Positions 5,615 to 63,147 of a stretch of 64,000 bases of DNA are shown here, one piece after another (position 1 is the first letter of the stretch; every line of letters starts with the position of its first letter). Source of the DNA: Cellulosimicrobium cellulans (GTDB lineage Bacteria; Actinomycetota; Actinomycetes; Actinomycetales; Cellulomonadaceae); contig NZ_JAFGYF010000001.1 in the NCBI RefSeq assembly GCF_016921195.1, positions 806,001-870,000 of the forward strand. Direction: 5' to 3'. The position numbers were made by a program, and so were the translations under genes. The notes below the pieces were generated by a model. That model made no database searches. It had not been told where the DNA came from and worked only from the letters and a program-made list of their open reading frames with translations.

Positions 5615-5731
5615 GGTCATGAGTGCCAGCGTGAAACCCCGGTTTGCTGGCCGGCAACCCTCCTCTCGCGGCGGGGTGCCCCGGGTGACGACCAGGCCGC
5701 ACGCCGACCGGCGCGTGGCAAGCGCGGGGAT
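5615..5731 (+). ncRNA. SAM-IV riboswitch 1
   Basis: The P1 stem is GGTC (5615-5618) with GACC (5690-5693). The P2 stem is GCCAGC (5625-5630) with GCTGGC (5646-5651). Next come the conserved GGCAACCC (5653-5660), the GGGGTGCCCCGGGTGA core, and a 3' arm ending GGCAAGCGCGGG that forms the pseudoknot of the class. From memory the sequence is nearly identical to the well-studied mycobacterial SAM-IV RNA. The element ends about 20 nt before the ribosome site of the desulfurase-like gene, so SAM binding probably blocks its translation or transcription. Confidence 0.93.
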
Positions 5732-32750: not shown

Positions 32751-33473
32751 TCAGGCGGGGCTCGCCCAGCCCGCGCGCACGCGGTCGACGAGGCGGTCGA
32801 GGAGGTCGGCCCACACGCGGCGCGAGGCGTCGTCGTCCGCAGCCCCGGTAGCCGCCCACCAGCGGCGCTGGATCACCAGGACGCCGGCCATGAGCGCGCC
32901 GACGAGCATCTCGATCTCGAGCGGGTCGACGTCGGGGTGCCGCCGCGTGGTCTCGGCGACCAGGCGCTCGGCGAGGTGGGTGAACGTGCGCACGACCATC
33001 GTCGTGACGCGCGGTGTGGGCTCGGTCGCGGTGCCACCGAGGGCGCGCGTGAGGTAGGCCATCGGGCCGACGAGGTCCGTGCCGCGGAGCGCCGTGGTGA
33101 CGTCGTCGAGCGGGGTCGCGCGGTCGGTGCCGGGGTCGGCCGCGCTCGCCCCGAGCGCGTCGACCACCGTACCGAGCACGTCCTCGCACACCTCGACGAC
33201 GACGTCGTCCAGGGAGGCGAAGTGGTTGAAGATCGTGCGCCGCGCGACGTCGGCGCGGGCCGCGAGGTCGTCGACCGTGAACCGGGCGCCGCCGTTCTCC
33301 TCCATGAGCGACGCCGCGGCGTCGACGATCCGACGGCGGTGCCGCGCGCGCAGCGCGGCGCGGCGGTCGGTCGCGGGACCGGCCGCGGGGTCGCTCACGG
33401 AGTCGGCCGCGGGGTCGGTCGCCCGGTCGGGCACGGGGGCGCCCGACGGCTCGGTCGTGGAGGAGAGGGGCAC
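32751..33473 (-). CDS. TetR family regulator of the MMPL exporter
   Basis: A 240-residue TetR protein. FTVDDLAARADVARRTIFNHF (residues about 65-85) is the helix-turn-helix. The first 35 residues are a disordered Asp/Pro/Ala-rich arm. Its GTG start has GGAG and lies only 7 bp from a perfect palindrome, so it surely represses itself, and with it the MMPL gene downstream on the same strand. Confidence 0.9.
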   Translation of the reverse strand: MPLSSTTEPSGAPVPDRATDPAADSVSDPAAGPATDRRAALRARHRRRIVDAAASLMEENGGARFTVDDLAARADVARRTIFNHFASLDDVVVEVCEDVLGTVVDALGASAADPGTDRATPLDDVTTALRGTDLVGPMAYLTRALGGTATEPTPRVTTMVVRTFTHLAERLVAETTRRHPDVDPLEIEMLVGALMAGVLVIQRRWWAATGAADDDASRRVWADLLDRLVDRVRAGWASPA

Positions 33474-33480
33474 CCTTTGA

Positions 33481-33506
33481 CACTAAGTGCATCGATGCAC
33501 TCAGTG
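33481..33506. promoter_or_regulatory. TetR operator palindrome
   Basis: AGTGCATCGATGCACT (33486-33501) is a perfect 16-bp palindrome flanked by CACT (33481-33484) and AGTG (33503-33506), giving 26 bp with only the central flanking base unmatched. It lies directly upstream of the TetR start codon. Confidence 0.78.
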
Positions 33507-33576
33507 CAAACAGTGGCCCCTCGCGGCTCAAAGTTGACCAAACAAGTCCAGTATGTGGGAAGGTCTCCCCGGTGCG

Positions 33577-33605
33577 TTGACACCCCCGGCGGCCGCTCGT
33601 AAGTT
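33577..33605 (+). promoter_or_regulatory. Promoter of the main sulfur operon
   Basis: TTGACA (33577-33582), a 17-bp spacer and TAAGTT (33600-33605) make one of the best sigma-70-type promoters in the window. Transcription would start near 33612, about 32 nt before the riboswitch. Confidence 0.7.
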
Positions 33606-33643
33606 CCCGCGCAACCGAGGTCGACGTACCCCGGTCACAGGAC

Positions 33644-33760
33644 ATGGTCATGAGCTCCGACGCCAAGCCCCGGCTCGTCGGACGGCAACCCTCCCGCGCG
33701 GTGGGGTGCCCCGGGTGAGGACCAGGTCCCGCGTCGCGCGGACCGCGCGCGGCACGGGAC
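33644..33760 (+). ncRNA. SAM-IV riboswitch 2
   Basis: P1 is GGTC (33646-33649) with GACC (33720-33723). P2 has changed to TCCGACG paired with CGTCGGA, a compensated variant of the stem in riboswitch 1. The core CGGCAACCCTCC and GGTGGGGTGCCCCGGGTGA are intact, and a GTCCCG/CGGGAC stem closes the 3' domain. It precedes the leader peptide and the LLM/ABC operon. Confidence 0.92.
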
Positions 33761-33801
33761 AACGACGCGGAGCCCGGAGACGGGCACGAAGGAGACGGAC
33801 G

Positions 33802-33933
33802 ATGGACCGGCGAGAGTCGAGCACCGCGGTGAGCACCCCGCACGCGTCGACGTGCCCCTGTCCGCTCGCGGGCGCCCCGGTCGCCCGCGCCCTCGGGGCC
33901 GCCGGACCCGTGCGCATCGCCTGTTGTCGCTGA
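33802..33933 (+). CDS. Cysteine-rich leader peptide (candidate attenuator)
   Basis: A 43-codon frame with an excellent AAGGAGA site 7 bp before its ATG, lying between the riboswitch and the first operon gene. It has four cysteines and ends ACCR-stop. Three of the four use TGT, a rare codon in DNA this GC-rich. The peptide resembles the cysteine leader peptides known upstream of actinobacterial sulfur genes, where stalling at Cys codons opens expression when cysteine is short. It has no other recognisable domain. Tandem hairpins follow at once. Confidence 0.7.
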   Translation: MDRRESSTAVSTPHASTCPCPLAGAPVARALGAAGPVRIACCR

Positions 33934-33955
33934 CGACGACCCGTCCCTGACACCC

Positions 33956-33992
33956 CGCGCGCCCCGGCGCGCGAGCCGGGTCCCTCCCGGCT
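33956..33992 (+). promoter_or_regulatory. Tandem hairpins after the leader peptide
   Basis: CGCGCGC (33956-33962) pairs with GCGCGCG (33967-33973), and AGCCGGG (33974-33980) with CCCGGCT (33986-33992). They begin 23 nt after the leader stop and could act as attenuator or terminator structures. No T-run follows. Confidence 0.45.
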
Positions 33993-34100
33993 CTCCAGCC
34001 TCGTCCTGCCGCCGCGCGGCCGGACCGCCCTGCCCACCCTCCGGCACCCCGCCGCGCCCCGAGCGCGCTGTCGGCACCCCACTGAGAACGGATCCTCGCG

Positions 34101-35255
34101 ATGTCCGACCCCCGCCCCGCCCGCACCCTCCACCTCGGCGTCGACCTCACCGACGCCGGCGCGCACCCCGCCGCCTGGCGGACCGTGGGCTCCCAGGCGC
34201 AGCGGCTCTTCGACGCCAAGCGCCTCGTCGAGCTCGTCGCCACCGCCCAGCGCGGCCTGCTCGACCTCGTGACGCTCGACGACGCGTTCACGCTCCAGCC
34301 GGGCCGCAACGGGTCCGTGCGCGGCCGGCTCGACGCCGCGCTCGTCGCGTCCCGGCTCGCGCCGCGCAGCGCCGGCATCGGCCTCGTCCCGACCGTGACG
34401 ACCACGCACACCGAGCCGTTCCACGTGTCCAAGGCGATCGCGACGATCGACCACGTGAGCTCCGGGCGCGCGGGGTGGCAGGTCGGGTGGTCGACGACCC
34501 CCGCCGAGGCCGCGGCCTTCGGCCGCAAGGGTGCGCAGGACGAGCCCGACGCCGTCGCCGAGGCCGACGAGGCCGTCGAGGTCGTCACGCGCCTGTGGGA
34601 CTCGTGGGAGGACGACGCGGAGATCCGTGACGTCGCGACGGGCCGGTTCGTGGACCGCGAGAAGCTCCACTACGTCGACCACGAGGGCATCCGGTTCGCG
34701 GTCAAGGGACCGTCCATCACGCCGCGGCCCCCGCAGGGCCAGCCGCCCGTCGTCGTGCGGGCGGACACGCCCGCGTCGCTCGACCTCGCGGCCCGCCGGG
34801 CCGACGTCGTGCGGGTCCGCGCCGCGACGCGCGACGAGGCGGTCGCGCTGCGGACGCAGGTGCGCGACGCCGCCGCCGACGCGGGGCGCGACCCCGGCAC
34901 GCTCCGGGTCCTCGTGGACGCCTACGTCGTCATCGGCGACACCCGCGCGAGCGCCCAGGCCCGCCTCGACCTGCTCGAGGACCTCGAGGGGGTCTCGTGG
35001 GACACGGACTCGCTCACGCACGTCGGCACGGCGCGCGACCTCGCCGTCACGGTCGAGGAGTGGCTGCACGCCGGCGCGGCCGACGGCTTCCTCCTGCGCC
35101 CGTCGTCCCTGAGCACCGACCTCGACGCGGTCGTCGACGGCGTCGTGCCGCTCCTGCAGGGCGCGGGCCTGTTCCGCACGGCGTACCCCGGGACGACGCT
35201 GCGCGACACCCTCGGCCTCCCGCACCCCGCGAACCGCTACGCGGCGATCGCCTGA
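34101..35255 (+). CDS. LLM-class flavin-dependent monooxygenase 1
   Basis: A 384-residue luciferase-like protein, first structural gene of the operon. VATAQRGLLDLVTLDDAF near the N-terminus, IATIDHVSSGRAGWQVGWS in the middle and ADGFLLRPSSLSTDLDAVVDGVVPLLQ near the end match the NtaA/SnaA/DszA type, which uses FMNH2 from a separate reductase to oxidise C-S or C-N bonds. It lacks part of the usual middle insertion, so it is shorter than the next gene product. The substrate is unknown. The ATG has only a weak ribosome site, as expected for a controlled start. Confidence 0.87.
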   Translation: MSDPRPARTLHLGVDLTDAGAHPAAWRTVGSQAQRLFDAKRLVELVATAQRGLLDLVTLDDAFTLQPGRNGSVRGRLDAALVASRLAPRSAGIGLVPTVTTTHTEPFHVSKAIATIDHVSSGRAGWQVGWSTTPAEAAAFGRKGAQDEPDAVAEADEAVEVVTRLWDSWEDDAEIRDVATGRFVDREKLHYVDHEGIRFAVKGPSITPRPPQGQPPVVVRADTPASLDLAARRADVVRVRAATRDEAVALRTQVRDAAADAGRDPGTLRVLVDAYVVIGDTRASAQARLDLLEDLEGVSWDTDSLTHVGTARDLAVTVEEWLHAGAADGFLLRPSSLSTDLDAVVDGVVPLLQGAGLFRTAYPGTTLRDTLGLPHPANRYAAIA

Positions 35256-35273: not shown

Positions 35274-36674
35274 ATGAGCACCCGACCCCGCAAGCAGATC
35301 CACCTCGGCGCCCACTTCCCGGGCGTCAACAACACGACCGTCTGGAGCGACCCGCGCTCGGGCAGCCAGATCGACTTCTCCTCGTTCGAGCACCTCGCCC
35401 GCCGCGCCGAGGAGGCCAAGCTCGACTTCTTCTTCCTCGCGGAGGGCCTGCGCCTGCGCGAGCACAAGGGCCGCATCCACGACCTCGACGTCGTCGGCCG
35501 CCCCGACACGCTGCCCGTCCTCGCCGCGCTGGCCGCCGTCACGGAGCGGCTCGGCCTCGCGGGCACGATCAACACGACGTTCAACGAGCCGTGGGAGCTC
35601 GCGAAGCAGTTCGCGACGCTCGACCTGCTCTCCGAGGGCCGCGCGGCGTGGAACCTCGTGACGAGCCCCGACGCCTTCACGGGCGCCAACTTCCGCCGCG
35701 GCGGCTACCTCCCGTACCCCGAGCGCTACGCGCGGGCGGCCGAGGTCGTCGAGGTCGCGCGCGCCCTGTGGGACTCGTGGGAGGACGACGCCGTCCTGGC
35801 CGACCGGATCGCGGGCGAGTTCCTGCGGCCCAGGTCGGTGCGGCCGGTCGCGCACCACGGGACGTACGCGGACGTCGTCGGGCTGTTCGAGACGCCGCGC
35901 GGTCCGCAGGGCCACCCGGTCCTGTTCCAGGCGGGCGACTCGGCCGACGGGCGCGACTTCGCCGCCGCGACCGCGGACGTCGTGTTCTCCGCGCACTCGA
36001 CGTTCGACGCCGGCCGCGCGTTCTACGCGGACGTCAAGGGACGGCTCGCCGCCCACGGGCGCGAGCGCGACTCCCTGAAGATCCTGCCCGCGACCGTCGT
36101 CGTGCTGGGCGGCACGCCCGCCGAGGCGGAGGAGCGCGCGCGAGAGATCCGGCTCCAGCAGGTCTCGGGCCCGACGGCGATCGCGTTCCTCGAGCAGGTC
36201 TGGGGCCGCGACCTCGAGGCGTACGACCCCGACGGACCGCTGCCCGACGTCGACCCCGACACCGAGAACCTGTCGATCACGCGCGGCCGCGTGCGGCACG
36301 CGAAGGACCCGGCGGCGGTCGCCGCGGAGTGGCGCGAGCAGGCCGAGGCGAACGGGTGGTCGATCCGCGAGCTCGTCATCCAGGTGACGTCGCGCGGCGG
36401 GTTCGTCGGCACGCCGCAGCAGGTCGCGGACGACATCGACCGGCACGTCCAGGAGGACGCGTCCGACGGCTTCATCCTCGTGCCCCACCTCACGCCGGGC
36501 GGGCTCGACGACGTCTTCGACCAGGTCGTCCCGCTGCTCCAGGAGCGCGGCTCGTTCCGCACGGAGTACGCGGGCACGACCCTGCGCGAGCACCTCGGCC
36601 TCGCCCGCCCCGGCGCGCAGCCGCGCGCCGACGACCCCGAGCCGGCCACGGCCTCCGCCGAGCTCGTCGGCTGA
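35274..36674 (+). CDS. NtaA/SnaA/DszA-type FMN monooxygenase 2
   Basis: A 466-residue monooxygenase with the full NtaA-family layout. IHLGAHFPGVNNTTVWSDP starts the barrel, FATLDLLSEGRAAWNLVTSPDAFTGANF is the flavin-binding region, and GHPVLFQAGDSADGRDFAA and ASDGFILVPHLTPGGLDDVFDQVVP are typical late motifs. This is the family of Bacillus YxeK and CmoJ/SnaA-type enzymes, which break C-S bonds of N-acetylated S-substituted cysteines, and of DszA. It lies 18 bp after monooxygenase 1 and upstream of the GNAT and ABC genes, as in yxe-type operons. Confidence 0.9.
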   Translation: MSTRPRKQIHLGAHFPGVNNTTVWSDPRSGSQIDFSSFEHLARRAEEAKLDFFFLAEGLRLREHKGRIHDLDVVGRPDTLPVLAALAAVTERLGLAGTINTTFNEPWELAKQFATLDLLSEGRAAWNLVTSPDAFTGANFRRGGYLPYPERYARAAEVVEVARALWDSWEDDAVLADRIAGEFLRPRSVRPVAHHGTYADVVGLFETPRGPQGHPVLFQAGDSADGRDFAAATADVVFSAHSTFDAGRAFYADVKGRLAAHGRERDSLKILPATVVVLGGTPAEAEERAREIRLQQVSGPTAIAFLEQVWGRDLEAYDPDGPLPDVDPDTENLSITRGRVRHAKDPAAVAAEWREQAEANGWSIRELVIQVTSRGGFVGTPQQVADDIDRHVQEDASDGFILVPHLTPGGLDDVFDQVVPLLQERGSFRTEYAGTTLREHLGLARPGAQPRADDPEPATASAELVG

Positions 36675-36733
36675 CCCCCCGCCCGCCCGCACCCGTCCCG
36701 CAGACCCTGCACCGCACCGACCTCGGAGGACCC

Positions 36734-37669
36734 ATGAGCCAGAGCACGCTGCCCGCCACGGGCGCCACGGGCGCCACGGGCGCCGCGGCCGCGAGCACCG
36801 ACGCACCGGACGTCGTCCCGCACCCGGCGGCCGACGCCGCCGCGTGGGAGGCGTGGCACGCCGAGCGCGAGGAGGCGCTGCGCCCGCCGCACGGCTGGCT
36901 GAGCCTCGTCGCGTACCACTGGCTCGCCGCCGAGCCCACCGCGCTGCCCGGCGTGCCCGGGCTCTGGTGGGCCGACGCCGACGGCGCGCACCACCGCGCG
37001 GGCGAGGGCGGCGCCGTCCGGGCGACGACGGGCGACTCCGTCGAGACCGCCGTCGGGACCGTCGTCGTCACGGAGGGCGGCTCGACGATCGCGGGCACGT
37101 TCCTGCCGGACGGCCGGGACGCGCTCGACGTGTCGAACGGGGGTGAGACGCGCGAGGTCGCGGTCGAGGTCGTGCGCCGCACGGGCCGGTACGCGGTCCG
37201 GCTGCGCGACCCGCTCGCACCGCCCCGGCTCGCGTTCGACGGCGTCCCGGCGTTCGCGTACGACCCCGCCTGGGTCGTGGACGCGCCGGTGCGCTGGTAC
37301 GACGCGCCGCGGCCCGTCGTCGTCGGCGCAGCGCGCCCCGGCCTGGTGCACCACGTGAGCACGGTCGGCGAGGTCGACCTCGTGGTCGAGCGTGACGGGG
37401 TCTCCCGCCGCGCGACGCTCGTCCTCACCGGCAAGGCCGGCGGCGCGGTGACGCTGCTGTTCAGCGACGAGGCCGACGGCGTCGCCCCCTGGCGCGTGCT
37501 GGGGGTGGACGCCGACGTGGCGCCCGGCACCGCGGGGCGCGTGCGGTTCGACCTGAACCGGACGGTCAACCTCCCGTACGCGTTCAGCAACTTCGGGACG
37601 TGCCCGGCGCCGGTCGAGGGCAACCACGTGCCGTTCGCCGTCACCGCGGGCGAGAGGGCACCCCGATGA
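36734..37669 (+). CDS. DUF1684 domain protein
   Basis: A 311-residue soluble protein. WEAWHAEREEALRPPHGWLSLVAYHWL opens the DUF1684 domain, and the C-terminal signature region is DLNRTVNLPYAFSNFGTCPAPVEGNH, where Asn, Tyr and Cys positions follow the family pattern. Function is unknown. The first 30 residues are a Gly/Ala/Thr-rich tail that is not conserved. The ATG has GGAGG. Its stop overlaps the GNAT start (ATGA). Its presence here suggests a role in organosulfur breakdown, which I infer only from the neighbourhood. Confidence 0.85.
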   Translation: MSQSTLPATGATGATGAAAASTDAPDVVPHPAADAAAWEAWHAEREEALRPPHGWLSLVAYHWLAAEPTALPGVPGLWWADADGAHHRAGEGGAVRATTGDSVETAVGTVVVTEGGSTIAGTFLPDGRDALDVSNGGETREVAVEVVRRTGRYAVRLRDPLAPPRLAFDGVPAFAYDPAWVVDAPVRWYDAPRPVVVGAARPGLVHHVSTVGEVDLVVERDGVSRRATLVLTGKAGGAVTLLFSDEADGVAPWRVLGVDADVAPGTAGRVRFDLNRTVNLPYAFSNFGTCPAPVEGNHVPFAVTAGERAPR

Positions 37670-38304
37670 CCGCGCTCGCGGCGGGACCGGCCACGGCGGG
37701 ACCGGCCAGCACGGGATCGACCGGAGGGACACGGCCGAGCGCAGCAGCGCGTGAGGTCCGCTCCGTCGCCATGCACGACCCGCTCGTGCGACCGCTGCTC
37801 GACGAGCTGTCCCACGAGTACTGGACGCGGTACCAGCGCGTGCTCACCGCGGAGGAGCTCCGCGCCGAGATGGAGCACTATCCCGCGCAGGACTTCGCGG
37901 CGCCGCACGGCGAGCTCGTGCTCGTGCTCGAGGACGGCGAGCCCGTCGCGGGCGGTGCGTTCCGGCGTCGGGCCGAGCCGGAGCTCGGTGACCCCGCGCG
38001 CCTCGCCCGGCCCTCCGCGCGCCGCGCCGACGGGACGCCCGCCGTGCGCACCGCCGAGCTCAAGCGGATCTGGACGCACTCGGCGCACCGGCGCCGCGGG
38101 CTGGCGCGCGTCGTGCTCGCCGAGCTCGAGCGCCGGGCCGTCGAGCGCGGCTACCGGCGCGTGTACCTCACGACGGGCCCGCGCCAGCCCGAGGCCGCCG
38201 GCCTCTACCTCGCGACGGGCTACACGCCCCTGTTCGACACCGGGACCGATCCCGAGGAGATCGGCCCGCTCGCCTTCGAGAAGTGGTTGGAGGTCGCGCC
38301 ATGA
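37666..38304 (+). CDS. GNAT N-acetyltransferase in the sulfur operon
   Basis: A 212-residue GNAT protein. [25 protein letters not shown] is the acetyl-CoA-binding motif A (R-x-x-G-x-A) and [24 protein letters not shown] is motif B. The first 30 residues are a disordered extension. In the yxe and ytm operons of Bacillus a GNAT acetylates S-substituted cysteine before the LLM monooxygenase acts, and this protein sits in the equivalent place between monooxygenases and transporter. The start and stop both overlap their neighbours by four bases. Confidence 0.87.
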
Positions 38305-39392
38305 GCACCGTGTCGCTCCCGCAGGACGAGTCCCGGCAGCTCGCGCCGCCGTCGGGCCGGCACCCCGCCGACCCGCGCGCCGGCTCGCCCGACGCGCTGC
38401 CGCTCGAGAGCCTGCGCATCGTCCCCGCCCGGCACCCGGGCCGCTGGGTCGCGACGGCCGGCGTGGCCGTGCTGCTCGCCATGGTGGTCAGCTCGCTCGT
38501 GACGAACGACCGCTGGGAGTGGGACGTCGTCGCGCAGTACCTCACGTGGCCCTCGATCCTCGAGGGCGCGTGGGCGACGATCCGGCTCACGCTCGTCGCG
38601 TCGGTGGTCGGGTTCGCGCTCGGCACCGTGCTCGCGCTCATGCGGCTGTCGCGCTCGCCGCTCCTGCAGTCGGTCTCGTGGACGTACACGTGGGTGTTCC
38701 GGTCGGTGCCGCTGCTGCTGCAGCTCCTGCTCTGGTACAACCTCGCCTACCTGTACCCGTACCTGAGCGTCGGCATCCCGTTCGGGCCCGAGTTCCTGTA
38801 CTTCGACACGCTGTCCGTGATCGACAAGTTCTGGGCCGCGATCCTCGGGCTCGGGCTCTCGCAGGCCGCGTACTCGGCCGAGATCGTGCGGGCCGGGATC
38901 CTCTCCGTCGACCAGGGGCAGCAGGAGGCCGCCGCGTCGCTCGGCATCCCCAAGCGGCGCCAGGTGAGCCGCATCATCCTGCCGCAGGCGATGCGCTCCA
39001 TCATCCCGACGGCCGTCAACGAGGTGATCGGGCTGCTCAAGGGCACGTCGATCGTCTACGTGCTGGCGTACGGCGAGCTGTTCTACATCGTCAGCGTCAT
39101 CTACGGCCGCAACGGCCGCGTCGTGCCGCTGCTCATCGTCGCGTCGATCTGGTACCTCGTGCTGACGACCCTCATCACGGTCGTCCAGTACTACGTCGAG
39201 CGGCACTACGCGAAGGGCGCGGTCCGCACGCTGCCGCCGACGCCGCTCCAGAAGGCCCGCTGGACCGTCCTCGTCTGGGCGTCGCGGCTCTCCGGCCGGC
39301 CCGTGCCCGACTCCGTCCCGCCCGCGTACGCGGCCCGCGCCCGGGTGGGCGTGCTGACCCGCACCGCCCGCACCTCGGGAGGTGCGGCATGA
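38301..39392 (+). CDS. Polar amino acid-type ABC transporter permease
   Basis: A 363-residue HisM/GlnP-type permease. About five helices follow a 50-residue cytoplasmic N-terminus. [37 protein letters not shown] and the EAA loop [24 protein letters not shown] are characteristic. A long loop between the third and fourth helices and a Pro-rich C-terminus make it longer than most. It works with the ATPase and binding protein encoded next. Likely cargo is an S-containing amino acid, by context. Confidence 0.92.
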
Positions 39393-40183
39393 CCGCCGAG
39401 ACCACAGCCGCGGGCGTCGCGACCGCCGGGCTCGTCGAGATCCACGGCGTCCACAAGAGCTTCGGCACGCTCGAGGTGCTGCGCGACGTGTCGCTCACGG
39501 TGCCGCCCGGGTCCGTGACCGTGGTGCTCGGGCCGTCCGGCTCCGGGAAGTCGACGCTCCTGCGCGCGATCAACCACCTCGAAAAGGTGGACAAGGGTTT
39601 CATCTCGCTCGACGGCGAGCTCATCGGCTACCGCCGCAAGGGCAACACCCTGCGCGAGCTCAAGGAGCGCGAGATCCTCGGTCAGCGCACCCAGATCGGG
39701 TTCGTCTTCCAGAGCTTCAACCTCTTCCCGCACCTCACGGCGCTCGAGAACGTCGTCGAGGCGCCCGTCTCCGCGCAGCGCCGCCGTCGCGAGGACGTCG
39801 AGCCCGAGGCCCGCGCGCTGCTCGAGCGCGTGGGGCTCGCCGACAAGGCGGACGCCCGGCCGCGCCAGCTCTCCGGTGGGCAGCAGCAGCGCGTCGCCAT
39901 CGCCCGTGCGCTCGCGCTGCGGCCCAAGGTGCTCCTGTTCGACGAGCCCACCTCGGCGCTCGACCCCGAGCTCGTCGGGGAGGTGCTCGAGGTCATCAAG
40001 GACGTCGCGAGCACCGGCACGACGCTCGTCGTCGTCACGCACGAGATCGGCTTCGCCCGCGAGGTCGCCGACACCGTCGTGTTCATGGACGACGGCGTCG
40101 TCGTGGAACAGGGCACGCCCGCCGAGGTGCTCGACCACCCACGCCACGACCGCACCCGGGCCTTCCTCCAGAAGGTCCTCTGA
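39389..40183 (+). CDS. Polar amino acid-type ABC transporter ATPase
   Basis: A 264-residue ATPase of the GlnQ/HisP type. Walker [10 protein letters not shown]-loop [18 protein letters not shown], signature LSGGQQQR, Walker [15 protein letters not shown] and switch THEIGFA are all intact. It has a small family insertion, [17 protein letters not shown]. The ATG overlaps the permease stop. Confidence 0.94.
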
Positions 40184-40284
40184 ACCACCGATTCCCGACG
40201 TCGTCACGCGACCGGCCGTCCGGCCGTCCCGCACACCCGCACTCCCTGCGTCGCCCGACGCACCACCCGAGAGGTAGGACACCC

Positions 40285-41307
40285 GTGACCGCAACGACCA
40301 CCCGCGCCCGCGCCCCCCGCGCGCTCGCCGCCCTCGCCGTCGTGCCCCTGCTGGCGCTCGCGGCCTGCTCCGGGGTGAGCACCGAGGCCCCGGCCGCGGC
40401 GGAGGAGGGCGCGGCCACCGAGGAGAGCACGACCTCCGTGTCGGACGCCCTCGACGTGAGCACGAGCCCCGACCAGGACCGCATCCGCACCACCGAGTCG
40501 GCCGAGGCGATCGCGCTCCTCCCGGACGCCTGGAAGGACAAGGACGAGCTCGTCGTCGCGATCTCCGCCGGCGCGGCGCCGCCGCTCGGGTTCCTCGCCG
40601 ACGACGACGAGACGCCCATCGGCAACGAGACCGACATCGCGCAGCTCGTCGCCGACGCGCTGGGCAAGGACCTGCGCCTCGAGGTCAAGGCCTGGGCCGA
40701 CTGGCCGCTCGCGCTGGGCTCGGGCGACGTCGACGCCGTGATCTCCAACGTCACCGTGACCGAGGAGCGCAAGGAGACCATCGACTTCTCCACCTACCGC
40801 AACGACGAGCTCGGCTGGCTCGTGGGCGCCGACTCCGACATCACGTCGATCACGAAGCGCGAGGACATCGCGGGCAAGGTCGTCGCCGTCGGCTCCGGGA
40901 CGAACCAGGAGAAGATCGTGCTCGAGTGGGACCGCCTCAACCAGGAGGACGGCCTCGAGCCCATCCAGGGCCCCGAGTACTACGAGCAGTTCTCCGACGT
41001 CCTGCTCGCGCTCCAGTCCGGGCGCATCGAGACGTACGTCGGCCCCAACGCGTCGCTCGCGTACCAGGCGGCGATCTCCCCGCAGGACTTCACGGTCGTC
41101 GGCACGCTCAACGGGGGCTGGCCCGACACGGCGCAGATCGCCGTGGCCACGAAGAAGGGCAACGAGCTCGCCCCGGCCGTCACCGCCGCGATCAACCACG
41201 CCATCGAGGACGGCACGTACCTCGAGGTGCTCCAGCGGTGGGGCCTGGAGTCCGAGGCCGTCGAGCAGTCGCAGACCAACCCGCCCGGCCTGCCGAAGAC
41301 GGAGTGA
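40285..41307 (+). CDS. Amino acid ABC transporter substrate-binding lipoprotein
   Basis: A 340-residue family 3 binding protein. The lipobox ALAACSG places the lipid on C28. The mature part has PPLGFLADDDETPIGNETDIAQLVADALG and DAVISNVTVTEERKETIDFSTY, the usual ligand-domain signatures with the Arg/Asp pair that binds an amino acid alpha-group only partly visible. GTG start with a GAGG/AGGA site. It completes the transporter with the permease and ATPase just upstream. The acidic linker after the lipobox is about 35 residues. Confidence 0.92.
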   Translation: MTATTTRARAPRALAALAVVPLLALAACSGVSTEAPAAAEEGAATEESTTSVSDALDVSTSPDQDRIRTTESAEAIALLPDAWKDKDELVVAISAGAAPPLGFLADDDETPIGNETDIAQLVADALGKDLRLEVKAWADWPLALGSGDVDAVISNVTVTEERKETIDFSTYRNDELGWLVGADSDITSITKREDIAGKVVAVGSGTNQEKIVLEWDRLNQEDGLEPIQGPEYYEQFSDVLLALQSGRIETYVGPNASLAYQAAISPQDFTVVGTLNGGWPDTAQIAVATKKGNELAPAVTAAINHAIEDGTYLEVLQRWGLESEAVEQSQTNPPGLPKTE

Positions 41308-41314
41308 CCCGAGC

Positions 41315-42508
41315 ATGACCACCAGCACCCAGCACGTCGACCACCTCGTGGTCGGGGGCGGCGTCATGGGCTCGGCCGCGGCGTGGCAGCTCGCCCGGCG
41401 AGGGCGCGACGTCGTGCTGCTCGAGCGCTTCGCGCCCGGGCACGCGCACGGCGCCTCCCACGGGACGTCGCGCATCTACCGCACGACCTACGCCGAGCCC
41501 GAGTACCTCGACCTCGCGCAGGAGGCGCTCCGCCTGTGGCGCGAGGTCGAGGACGAGGCCGGCACCGAGCTCCTCGCCGTCACCGGTGGCGTGAGCCACG
41601 GGCGGCGCGACGGCGCCGCCGAGCGCCGCGCGGACGCGATCGGCGCGGCGTTCGCGGCCCGCGGGATCGAGCACGAGTGGCTCGACCCCGCGGCCGCGGC
41701 CGAGCGGTGGCCCGGCCTGCGGTTCGAGGGCCGGGTGCTGCACGAGGTCGCGACGGCCGGGCGGCTCCACGCCGACCGCGCCGTCGCGGCCCTCCAGGGG
41801 GCCGCGGCCGCCCGGGGCGCCGACGTCCGGCACGAGGTCGCCGTCCGCCACGTCGAGCGCGTGCCCGCGGGCGTGCGGGTCGTCACCGACGGCGGCGACG
41901 TCGTCGCGCGGGTCGTCGTCGTGACCGTCGGGGCGTGGAGCGCCGGCCTGCTCGGCGGCCCGACCGGCGGGCTGCTGGGGCAGGAGCTCCCGCTCGTCGT
42001 CACGCAGGAGCAGCCCGCGCACTTCGCGCTCGTCCCGGGCGCGTCCCCGCAGGGGTGGCCCGCGTTCACGCACGACGTCGGTCCCGGTACCGCCTGGCCG
42101 AGCGGTGTCTACGGCCTCGCGACCCCGGGCGAGGGAGTCAAGGTCGGCTTCCACGGGGTCGGCCCCGTCGTCGACCCCGACCGGCGCTCCTACCGGCCGG
42201 AGCCGGGCCAGCTCGCCGCGCTGCGCGACTACGTGCGCACCTGGCTGCCCGGCCTCGACCCCGACGCCTACGTCCCCGTGAGCTGCACCTACACCACGAC
42301 GCCGGACCACGACTTCGTGCTCGACCGGCGCGGCCCGGTCGTCGTCGGCGCGGGGTTCTCCGGACACGGCTTCAAGTTCGCCCCGGCGGTCGGGCGCGTG
42401 CTCGCCGACTTCGCGACCGCCCCCGGCTCGCTGCCCGACGGCCGCACCGCCGCCGAGCGGTTCGCGCTCGCTCGCCTCGCCGCACTCCCCGAGAGGACCG
42501 CCTCATGA
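41315..42508 (+). CDS. FAD-dependent amine oxidase of the SoxA/SolA type
   Basis: A 397-residue flavoprotein of the monomeric sarcosine oxidase / N-methyltryptophan oxidase family. The Rossmann motif VVGGGVMGSAAAWQLARRG binds ADP, HGASHGTSRIYRTTYAEPEY is a family signature, and C324 in SCTYTTTPDHDF is where MSOX-type enzymes attach FAD covalently. It would oxidise a secondary amine or a ring imine to an aldehyde and H2O2. Its link to sulfur metabolism is unclear. It may clean up an N-alkyl product of the pathway. Only 7 bp separate it from the binding-protein gene. Confidence 0.87.
   Translation: MTTSTQHVDHLVVGGGVMGSAAAWQLARRGRDVVLLERFAPGHAHGASHGTSRIYRTTYAEPEYLDLAQEALRLWREVEDEAGTELLAVTGGVSHGRRDGAAERRADAIGAAFAARGIEHEWLDPAAAAERWPGLRFEGRVLHEVATAGRLHADRAVAALQGAAAARGADVRHEVAVRHVERVPAGVRVVTDGGDVVARVVVVTVGAWSAGLLGGPTGGLLGQELPLVVTQEQPAHFALVPGASPQGWPAFTHDVGPGTAWPSGVYGLATPGEGVKVGFHGVGPVVDPDRRSYRPEPGQLAALRDYVRTWLPGLDPDAYVPVSCTYTTTPDHDFVLDRRGPVVVGAGFSGHGFKFAPAVGRVLADFATAPGSLPDGRTAAERFALARLAALPERTAS

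Positions 42509-61451: not shown

Positions 61452-63147
<1,696 letters not shown>

Follow-up and report, generated by a model that had tools for sequence, protein, structure and literature searches.

The window analysed here, a stretch of 64,000 nucleotides from Cellulosimicrobium cellulans, carries on its plus strand a probable sulfur-scavenging operon, preceded by a leader in which a SAM-IV riboswitch aptamer is followed by a short open reading frame (ORF) with four cysteine codons. A divergent TetR-type gene (32751-33473, minus strand) lies 5' of the leader, and 167 nt separate the stop of the leader peptide from the first enzyme gene (34101). The features are as follows.

33546..33561, plus strand: operator-like dyad GTCCAGTATGTGGGAA, immediately 5' of the promoter (loose dyad pattern)
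33577..33605, plus strand: promoter read from the sequence, with -35 TTGACA (33577-33582), a 17-nt spacer and -10 TAAGTT (33600-33605)
33646..33744, plus strand: SAM-IV riboswitch aptamer (RF00634; 77.8 bits, E 4.1e-12)
33760..33770, plus strand: CAACGACGCGG, probable true 3' pseudoknot strand of the aptamer, by likeness to the consensus CAAGcGcgg
33772..33785, plus strand: hairpin GCCCG-gaga-CGGGC, five pairs, which separates the aptamer from the peptide Shine–Dalgarno sequence (SD)
33788..33794, plus strand: SD of the leader peptide, GAAGGAG, from the sequence
33802..33933, plus strand: Cys leader peptide MDRRESSTAVSTPHASTCPCPLAGAPVARALGAAGPVRIACCR, 43 codons, ending ACCR and then stop
33853 (TGC) and 33859, 33922 and 33925 (TGT), plus strand: Cys codons of the leader peptide
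33934..34083, plus strand: C-rich, G-poor spacer, candidate Rho-loading region, with C-over-G skew and without a T-run terminator
34086..34092, plus strand: GAACGGA, weak SD-like motif of the first enzyme gene
34101..35255, plus strand: first structural gene, NtaA/DmoA-family FMN-dependent luciferase-like monooxygenase (PF00296; TIGR03860 above cut-off)
35274..36674, plus strand: second NtaA/DmoA-family luciferase-like monooxygenase
36671..42508, plus strand: remainder of the probable operon (internal start codons approximate)

The last of these intervals encodes a DUF1684 protein, a GNAT acetyltransferase, an amino-acid ABC transporter (permease, ATPase and family-3 binding protein) and an FAD-dependent (DAO) oxidase. 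The best names for the permease and the ATPase are cystine-type and that for the binding protein is lysine/arginine/ornithine, each of them below its cut-off. We take this gene set to resemble the Bacillus ytmI operon for S-substituted cysteines; the probable role of the operon in sulfur scavenging is read from the names of the gene products together with the riboswitch. The first enzyme is 98% identical to its ortholog in Cellulosimicrobium funkei. It also contains hardly any cysteine (2 Cys in 11,780 codons over 31 orthologs), as if spared of sulfur.

Aptamer and leader peptide

An earlier note on this DNA had read a SAM-IV riboswitch in the leader, and the Rfam covariance model bears this out: the match to RF00634 on the plus strand covers the full length of the model (1-116) and scores 77.8 bits against a curated cut-off of 38. 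SAM-IV was also returned by cmscan at all ten of the closest orthologous loci. The Rfam match seems to end early owing to a longer hairpin, which would place the true 3' strand at 33760..33770. This strand is presumably the pseudoknot partner of the aptamer, and by eye a similar strand is present in most of the 24 loci compared.

The peptide of 43 residues that the note had singled out for its ACCR end and its three rare TGT codons is indeed present at 33802-33933, with one further Cys codon (TGC) and the SD GAAGGAG. Across 43 leader peptides, Cys takes 157 of 1466 codons and 128 of these are TGT, and 18 of the 43 peptides share the identical terminal 12 nt TGTTGTCGCTGA (TGT TGT CGC TGA). Elsewhere TGT is scarce: the 31 first-enzyme orthologs have none (and two TGC) in their 11,780 codons, five genes of the window have none (and two TGC) in 1856 codons, and ten window frames, one of which was read out of frame and contains stops, have 4 TGT and 12 TGC in 3290 codons. 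If the sole Cys tRNA has the usual GCA anticodon, TGT is read by wobble, and stalling on it would then be more sensitive.

The frame of the peptide is open far upstream (126 codons from 33553), and because the genome is high in GC, the length of the ORF is by itself uninformative; a chance ORF was ruled out by the SD, Cys-codon and conservation controls. The -35 box lies 225 nt ahead of the start codon, which is preceded by an SD of its own, so that the ORF does not look leaderless, unlike the mycobacterial polycysteine upstream ORFs (uORFs). Neither NCBIfam NF042934 (cis_reg_atten) nor any other NCBIfam model matches the window peptide. The marks of a putative attenuator were nevertheless found: a short ORF, an SD, Cys codons near the stop and conservation upstream of predicted sulfur genes.

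Conservation and natural variants of the leader

Orthologs of the first enzyme (E <= 1e-120) are present in 46 of the 221 genomes of the family. Upstream regions (L085-L096 and L115-L148, plus L006 and L007) were oriented by tblastn; L006 and L007 duplicate the sequences of L121 and L124, so that the 48 regions represent 46 loci and two repeats. Among the ten closest loci, the window locus included, the peptide SD is kept, and the ORF spans 34 to 47 codons. Its start, SD and Cys end stay in frame, and the internal length changes preserve the frame to the same end.

The test applied to each region asked for an ORF of 10-75 codons that is preceded by an SD and contains two or more Cys, one of them among the last five residues. 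Such an ORF was found in 44 of 48 regions, compared with 2.4% of shuffles and 3 of 48 reverse complements; when at least two TGT were demanded, the counts became 43 of 48, 0.5% and 1 of 48. The four failures are L096, L122, L139 and L143, and L122 fails solely because its Cys codons sit slightly further from the peptide end. The loci are related, and these counts and those that follow are therefore not counts of independent events.

SAM-IV was found by cmscan at 35 of the 46 loci, and since the match at L147 is on the opposite strand, 34 loci carry it on the same strand as the gene. Of these same-strand loci, 32 also have an SD-led ORF in which Cys is encoded at least twice; the two others, L139 and L143, have one Cys codon each. 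The earlier note had named lack of conservation in related genomes as a result that would speak against it, and the leader came through this test. The full arrangement (promoter, aptamer, hairpin, SD, Cys ORF, C-rich spacer and operon) is kept at 32 of the 46 orthologous loci of the family.

The note had also described the promoter as good. TTGACA and TAAGTT are readable, and a looser pattern (TTGAC, 15-19 nt, then TA or CA), applied without a shuffle control, occurs upstream in 47 of 48 loci; a strict sigma-70 scan of the leader, on the other hand, scored no promoter. Dyads of a loose pattern (GTCC, TTCC or GTTC, 5-10 nt, GGAC or GGAA; again without a shuffle control) lie upstream in 32 of the 47 loci with a promoter call, and the dyad ahead of the promoter is possibly a third, protein-based layer of control.

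The variants of the leader are informative. A Cys ORF is present in 11 of the 12 loci without a same-strand SAM-IV: six in Oerskovia (g15, in which L121 is identical to L006), three in Sanguibacter (g22, in which L124 is identical to L007), and L147 and L095. The twelfth, L096 (G016), has neither aptamer nor Cys ORF. The promoter lies 81 to 108 nt from the peptide in 10 of the 11 peptide-only loci; for the tandem loci most distances are 170 to 226 nt, with the peptide start set by default for L095, L096 and L139. The leader of L095 (G015) retains the promoter and the opening bases of the aptamer but has lost the aptamer body to a natural deletion (in a region about 400-150 nt upstream of the gene), and a Cys ORF then follows. 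The peptide-only loci and this one deletion mark the riboswitch as a movable part; from these sequences it looks as if the Cys leader is the older fixture of the operon and the aptamer a part gained or lost.

The Cys leader as a general companion of SAM-IV was ruled out, since only 1 of 29 class-wide SAM-IV loci passes the ORF test (with a 63-codon ORF), and no comparable SD-led short ORF was seen by eye in the ORF list at the other three SAM-IV sites of the window. The class-wide sample consists of the 30 best-scoring loci from 296 genomes, of which 29 could be placed by the core pattern. In Streptomyces, Cys leaders of the HIDLxRVAGALC type precede the same enzyme family at 30 of 31 loci examined (L067 and 30 kept from the 116 genomes with a match); here the search for the leader relied in part on its known motif and did not require an SD, and SAM-IV was sought by the core pattern. 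With cmscan run on L067 and six of the other 30, the only loci with a SAM-IV upstream on the same strand as the gene are L067 and L198. The L067 peptide belongs to NF042934, a putative leader peptide family (39 bits against 27). These two Streptomyces loci are perhaps a second origin of the tandem. In Ornithinimicrobium, L036 combines SAM-IV with a peptide ending CRCCCSPCCL; the same test returned no Cys leader among 25 further Ornithinimicrobium-type relatives, which makes the L036 tandem a single case. At four of these 25 distant loci (L211, L215, L221 and L223), SAM-IV lies close to the monooxygenase gene and a Cys leader is absent by the same test.

The start codon beside the aptamer

From the aptamer core to the peptide start we measured 65 to 89 nt (median 82) in 32 of 33 loci, the outlier of 19 nt being L146, where the peptide start is uncertain. 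The distance from the core to the enzyme gene is 236 to 555 nt (median 350), with gene starts aligned to the window protein and the true start up to about 100 nt away in some relatives. At the other SAM-IV sites of the window the next gene starts 80, 83 and 146 nt from the core. For the 29 class-wide loci we took the first SD-led start that opens a frame of at least 60 codons: it lies at 61-113 nt in 15 and at 167-268 nt in 11, and was not found in 3. These distances put the peptide at the near, common spacing and the enzyme gene mostly beyond the far one, although the 146-nt site and the 167-268-nt loci mean that the argument from spacing is not absolute. Judged by position, SAM-IV most likely gates translation of the Cys sensor peptide.

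A hairpin ahead of the peptide SD accompanies the aptamer. A stem score of at least 10 is reached in 30 of 34 loci (20 distinct hairpins), compared with 16% of mononucleotide shuffles; this sample of related loci wrongly includes L147 and omits L139, which has no set peptide start. Comparable scores occur in 3 of 9 peptide-only loci, and in 7 of 15 class-wide direct SAM-IV loci and 25% of their shuffles. Both arms have changed between genera, as in GCCCG/CGGGC, GCAGGC/GCCTGC, GGCGTC/GACGCC and GACCGGCA/TGCCGGTC. The succession of aptamer, hairpin and peptide SD is thus, by its predicted structure, the geometry of a translational switch on the peptide. No anti-SD partner for the peptide SD stood out in 27 loci (true aptamer–SD duplexes -21.36, exchanged ones -21.00, sd 0.45), and this absence of a cognate pairing signal counts against the series reading given below; the adjoining pseudoknot and hairpin may be enough to close the SD.

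Behind the peptide, the spacer of the window reaches a (C-G)/length of up to 0.267 over 150 nt, a value reached by 0.12% of the window background, and all 43 spacers fall within the top 2.1% of that background for C-over-G skew. This is a soft pointer to Rho, since the background consists largely of coding DNA, not every spacer fills the 150-nt window, and the Oerskovia-type spacers as cut include coding sequence; the skew hints at Rho-dependent termination in the C-rich spacer.

A predicted switch in series and its alternatives

We hold the arrangement of the parts with high confidence and the mechanism with moderate confidence. Our preferred reading of the sequence, and in our judgement a somewhat probable one, is a two-input switch for sulfur starvation in which the SAM-IV and Cys-leader sensors are wired in series. 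At high SAM, the aptamer would fold and, together with its 3' hairpin, keep ribosomes from translating the leader peptide; the C-rich RNA behind the empty leader would then be exposed and transcription would stop early, probably via Rho, which is the least certain step of the model. When SAM is low, the peptide would be translated, and if charged Cys-tRNA is plentiful the ribosome would finish at TGT-TGT-CGC-TGA and leave, so that the spacer would be exposed again and the operon would be off. If Cys-tRNA is also short, the ribosome would stall on the Cys codons by the stop and shield the start of the spacer, and RNA polymerase would proceed. Because an OFF-switch riboswitch would control ribosome entry and a stalled ribosome would be the ON signal, the operon would be on only when both SAM and Cys are low. 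This AND logic would follow from the order of the parts, whether the last step is Rho, a terminator or SD release; should the aptamer additionally influence the operon beyond the peptide, control would become additive and the AND would be weaker.

The observation that a riboswitch and a Cys ORF together precede the operon is confirmed. The note's further reading, that the operon senses both SAM and charged Cys-tRNA, is supported by the conserved tandem, and its AND/OR gate gives way to an AND in series because the spacing sets the riboswitch beside the peptide start. In a more ambitious form, to which we would give about an even chance, the gene that the riboswitch directly controls would be the sensor itself, so that SAM would decide whether Cys-tRNA is read out at all. 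Such a circuit would nest the sensor of one metabolite inside that of another to form an AND gate, built from RNA and a single stalled ribosome. It would be conserved among genera of one family and seemingly was assembled again in Streptomyces (two loci) and Ornithinimicrobium (one locus), where the aptamer stands before a different-looking Cys leader.

The two sensors could instead be independent controls on one transcript, with SAM-IV acting on transcription or on the whole operon and the Cys leader as a separate attenuator, in which case either starvation could raise expression. Each part does occur alone: 11 of 46 related loci have the Cys ORF but no same-strand SAM-IV, and 4 of 25 more distant ones have SAM-IV but no Cys leader. 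We nonetheless think this arrangement unlikely, because the spacing from the aptamer suits the start of the peptide and not that of the gene, the hairpin ahead of the peptide SD accompanies the aptamer, and a T-run terminator is absent from 33480-34130. Translational attenuation, in which the leader would pair with the ribosome-binding site (RBS) of the enzyme gene and a stalled ribosome would free it, seems to us improbable to a similar degree. It has been described for the cysteine genes of Mycobacterium smegmatis in PMC13236596, which cites Canestrari 2020. At our loci, where [AG]ACGGA lies near the gene start in 27 of 43, the peptide end pairs slightly better with its true gene RBS than with exchanged ones (-15.05 against -14.36, sd 0.39, 27 of 43 loci). 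Sequestration of the gene SD by the leader was not accepted, as cognate and exchanged partners lie only 1.8 sd apart with kinship uncontrolled. The gene SD is unpaired with a mean probability of 0.47 when the peptide region is included and of 0.53 when it is not (27 loci), and a covarying helix past the peptide is absent in the ten closest loci.

Attenuation of the trp type, through the tandem hairpins that the earlier note placed after the peptide and an intrinsic terminator, we consider very unlikely. Stable GC hairpins can be drawn by eye behind the peptide in the window sequence, but they are the weakest part of the note's observation and this part of its reading is not supported: they found no covariation support over ten close relatives (covariation term +0.53, double-sided changes in 2 of 34 pairs), and no intrinsic terminator with a T-run was found in 33480-34130. 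A hairpin between the Cys codons and bases past the stop was also considered and rejected, as by eye it is not kept in several other genera. A hairpin terminator is accordingly unlikely as the downstream step, on what the sequence offers. Least probable of all, and hardly credible to us, is that the product of the ORF is a small Cys protein with a function of its own (metal or redox) and not a sensor: its SD and Cys residues are conserved, yet the sequence between the ends drifts until it is hard to recognize by eye between genera, as expected of a codon sensor and not of a working protein, and the preference for TGT is strong.

To our knowledge, few natural circuits couple a riboswitch for one metabolite to a sensor of another that works by ribosome stalling. 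The Cys uORFs of M. smegmatis are called leaderless in the title of Canestrari 2020; unlike them, the ORF described here is SD-led and lies behind an aptamer, and the window peptide falls outside NF042934. Like the leaders of actinobacterial cys operons, it is a short ORF with Cys codons near its stop before predicted sulfur genes; the mycobacterial cys leaders likewise have no conserved terminator, and Rho was proposed for them on what the authors call a weak prediction (PMC1262725).

Relays from riboswitch to uORF are known from M. tuberculosis. The Mbox riboswitch controls the uORF rv1805A, with Rho-dependent termination (PMC12810186). There an actinobacterial riboswitch targets a small uORF before an operon, as predicted here, and Rho terminates within the leader, as it may here; the riboswitch described here adjoins the ribosome-binding site of its uORF, as in a relay of the Mbox type (core to start, median 82 nt, 33 loci). 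Unlike the switch proposed for our locus, Mbox has one input (Mg2+), and its uORF is a conserved small protein, not known as an amino-acid sensor (PMC12810186). In the B12 riboswitch–uPPE2 relay, a translated leader under riboswitch control passes the signal to the downstream gene, as predicted here, but does so by reinitiation at an overlapping stop and start and without a second metabolite (PMC11260477). Here 108 to 317 nt lie between the peptide stop and the aligned gene start (24 loci), which argues against such an overlapping relay. The Xanthomonas SAM-I riboswitch, which also senses uncharged initiator tRNA, resembles the switch predicted here in integrating SAM and a tRNA signal in one leader; it differs in that its expression platform binds tRNA directly and that it serves the methionine pathway, and a leader peptide does not appear in its abstract (PMC7270179).

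SAM-IV (RF00634) as known shares the aptamer family and the pathway, whereas its target here is most likely a sensor peptide and not an enzyme or transporter gene. The earlier note knew of no described tandem of SAM-IV and a Cys attenuator, and in the open-licence full-text literature we likewise found neither this tandem nor any description of a SAM riboswitch that targets a Cys sensor. Riboswitch–uORF relays, Cys uORFs and a tRNA-reading SAM-I are known, and the new element would be a SAM riboswitch with a Cys sensor as its target. If the series reading is true, it would show how actinobacteria merge methionine/SAM and cysteine signals for sulfur scavenging, and would add a SAM case to the riboswitch-to-uORF relays of M. 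tuberculosis. The leader is compact and conserved, and its natural variants (with the peptide only, with the aptamer deleted, with neither part) make the series logic testable in one reporter.

All four SAM-IV riboswitches found in the genome fall within this 64-kb window, at 5615, 33646 and 47918 on the plus strand and at 61583 on the minus strand. They precede, respectively, a class-V aminotransferase, the Cys-leader operon, a family-5 binding protein and an FMN reductase, and together outline a sulfur island.
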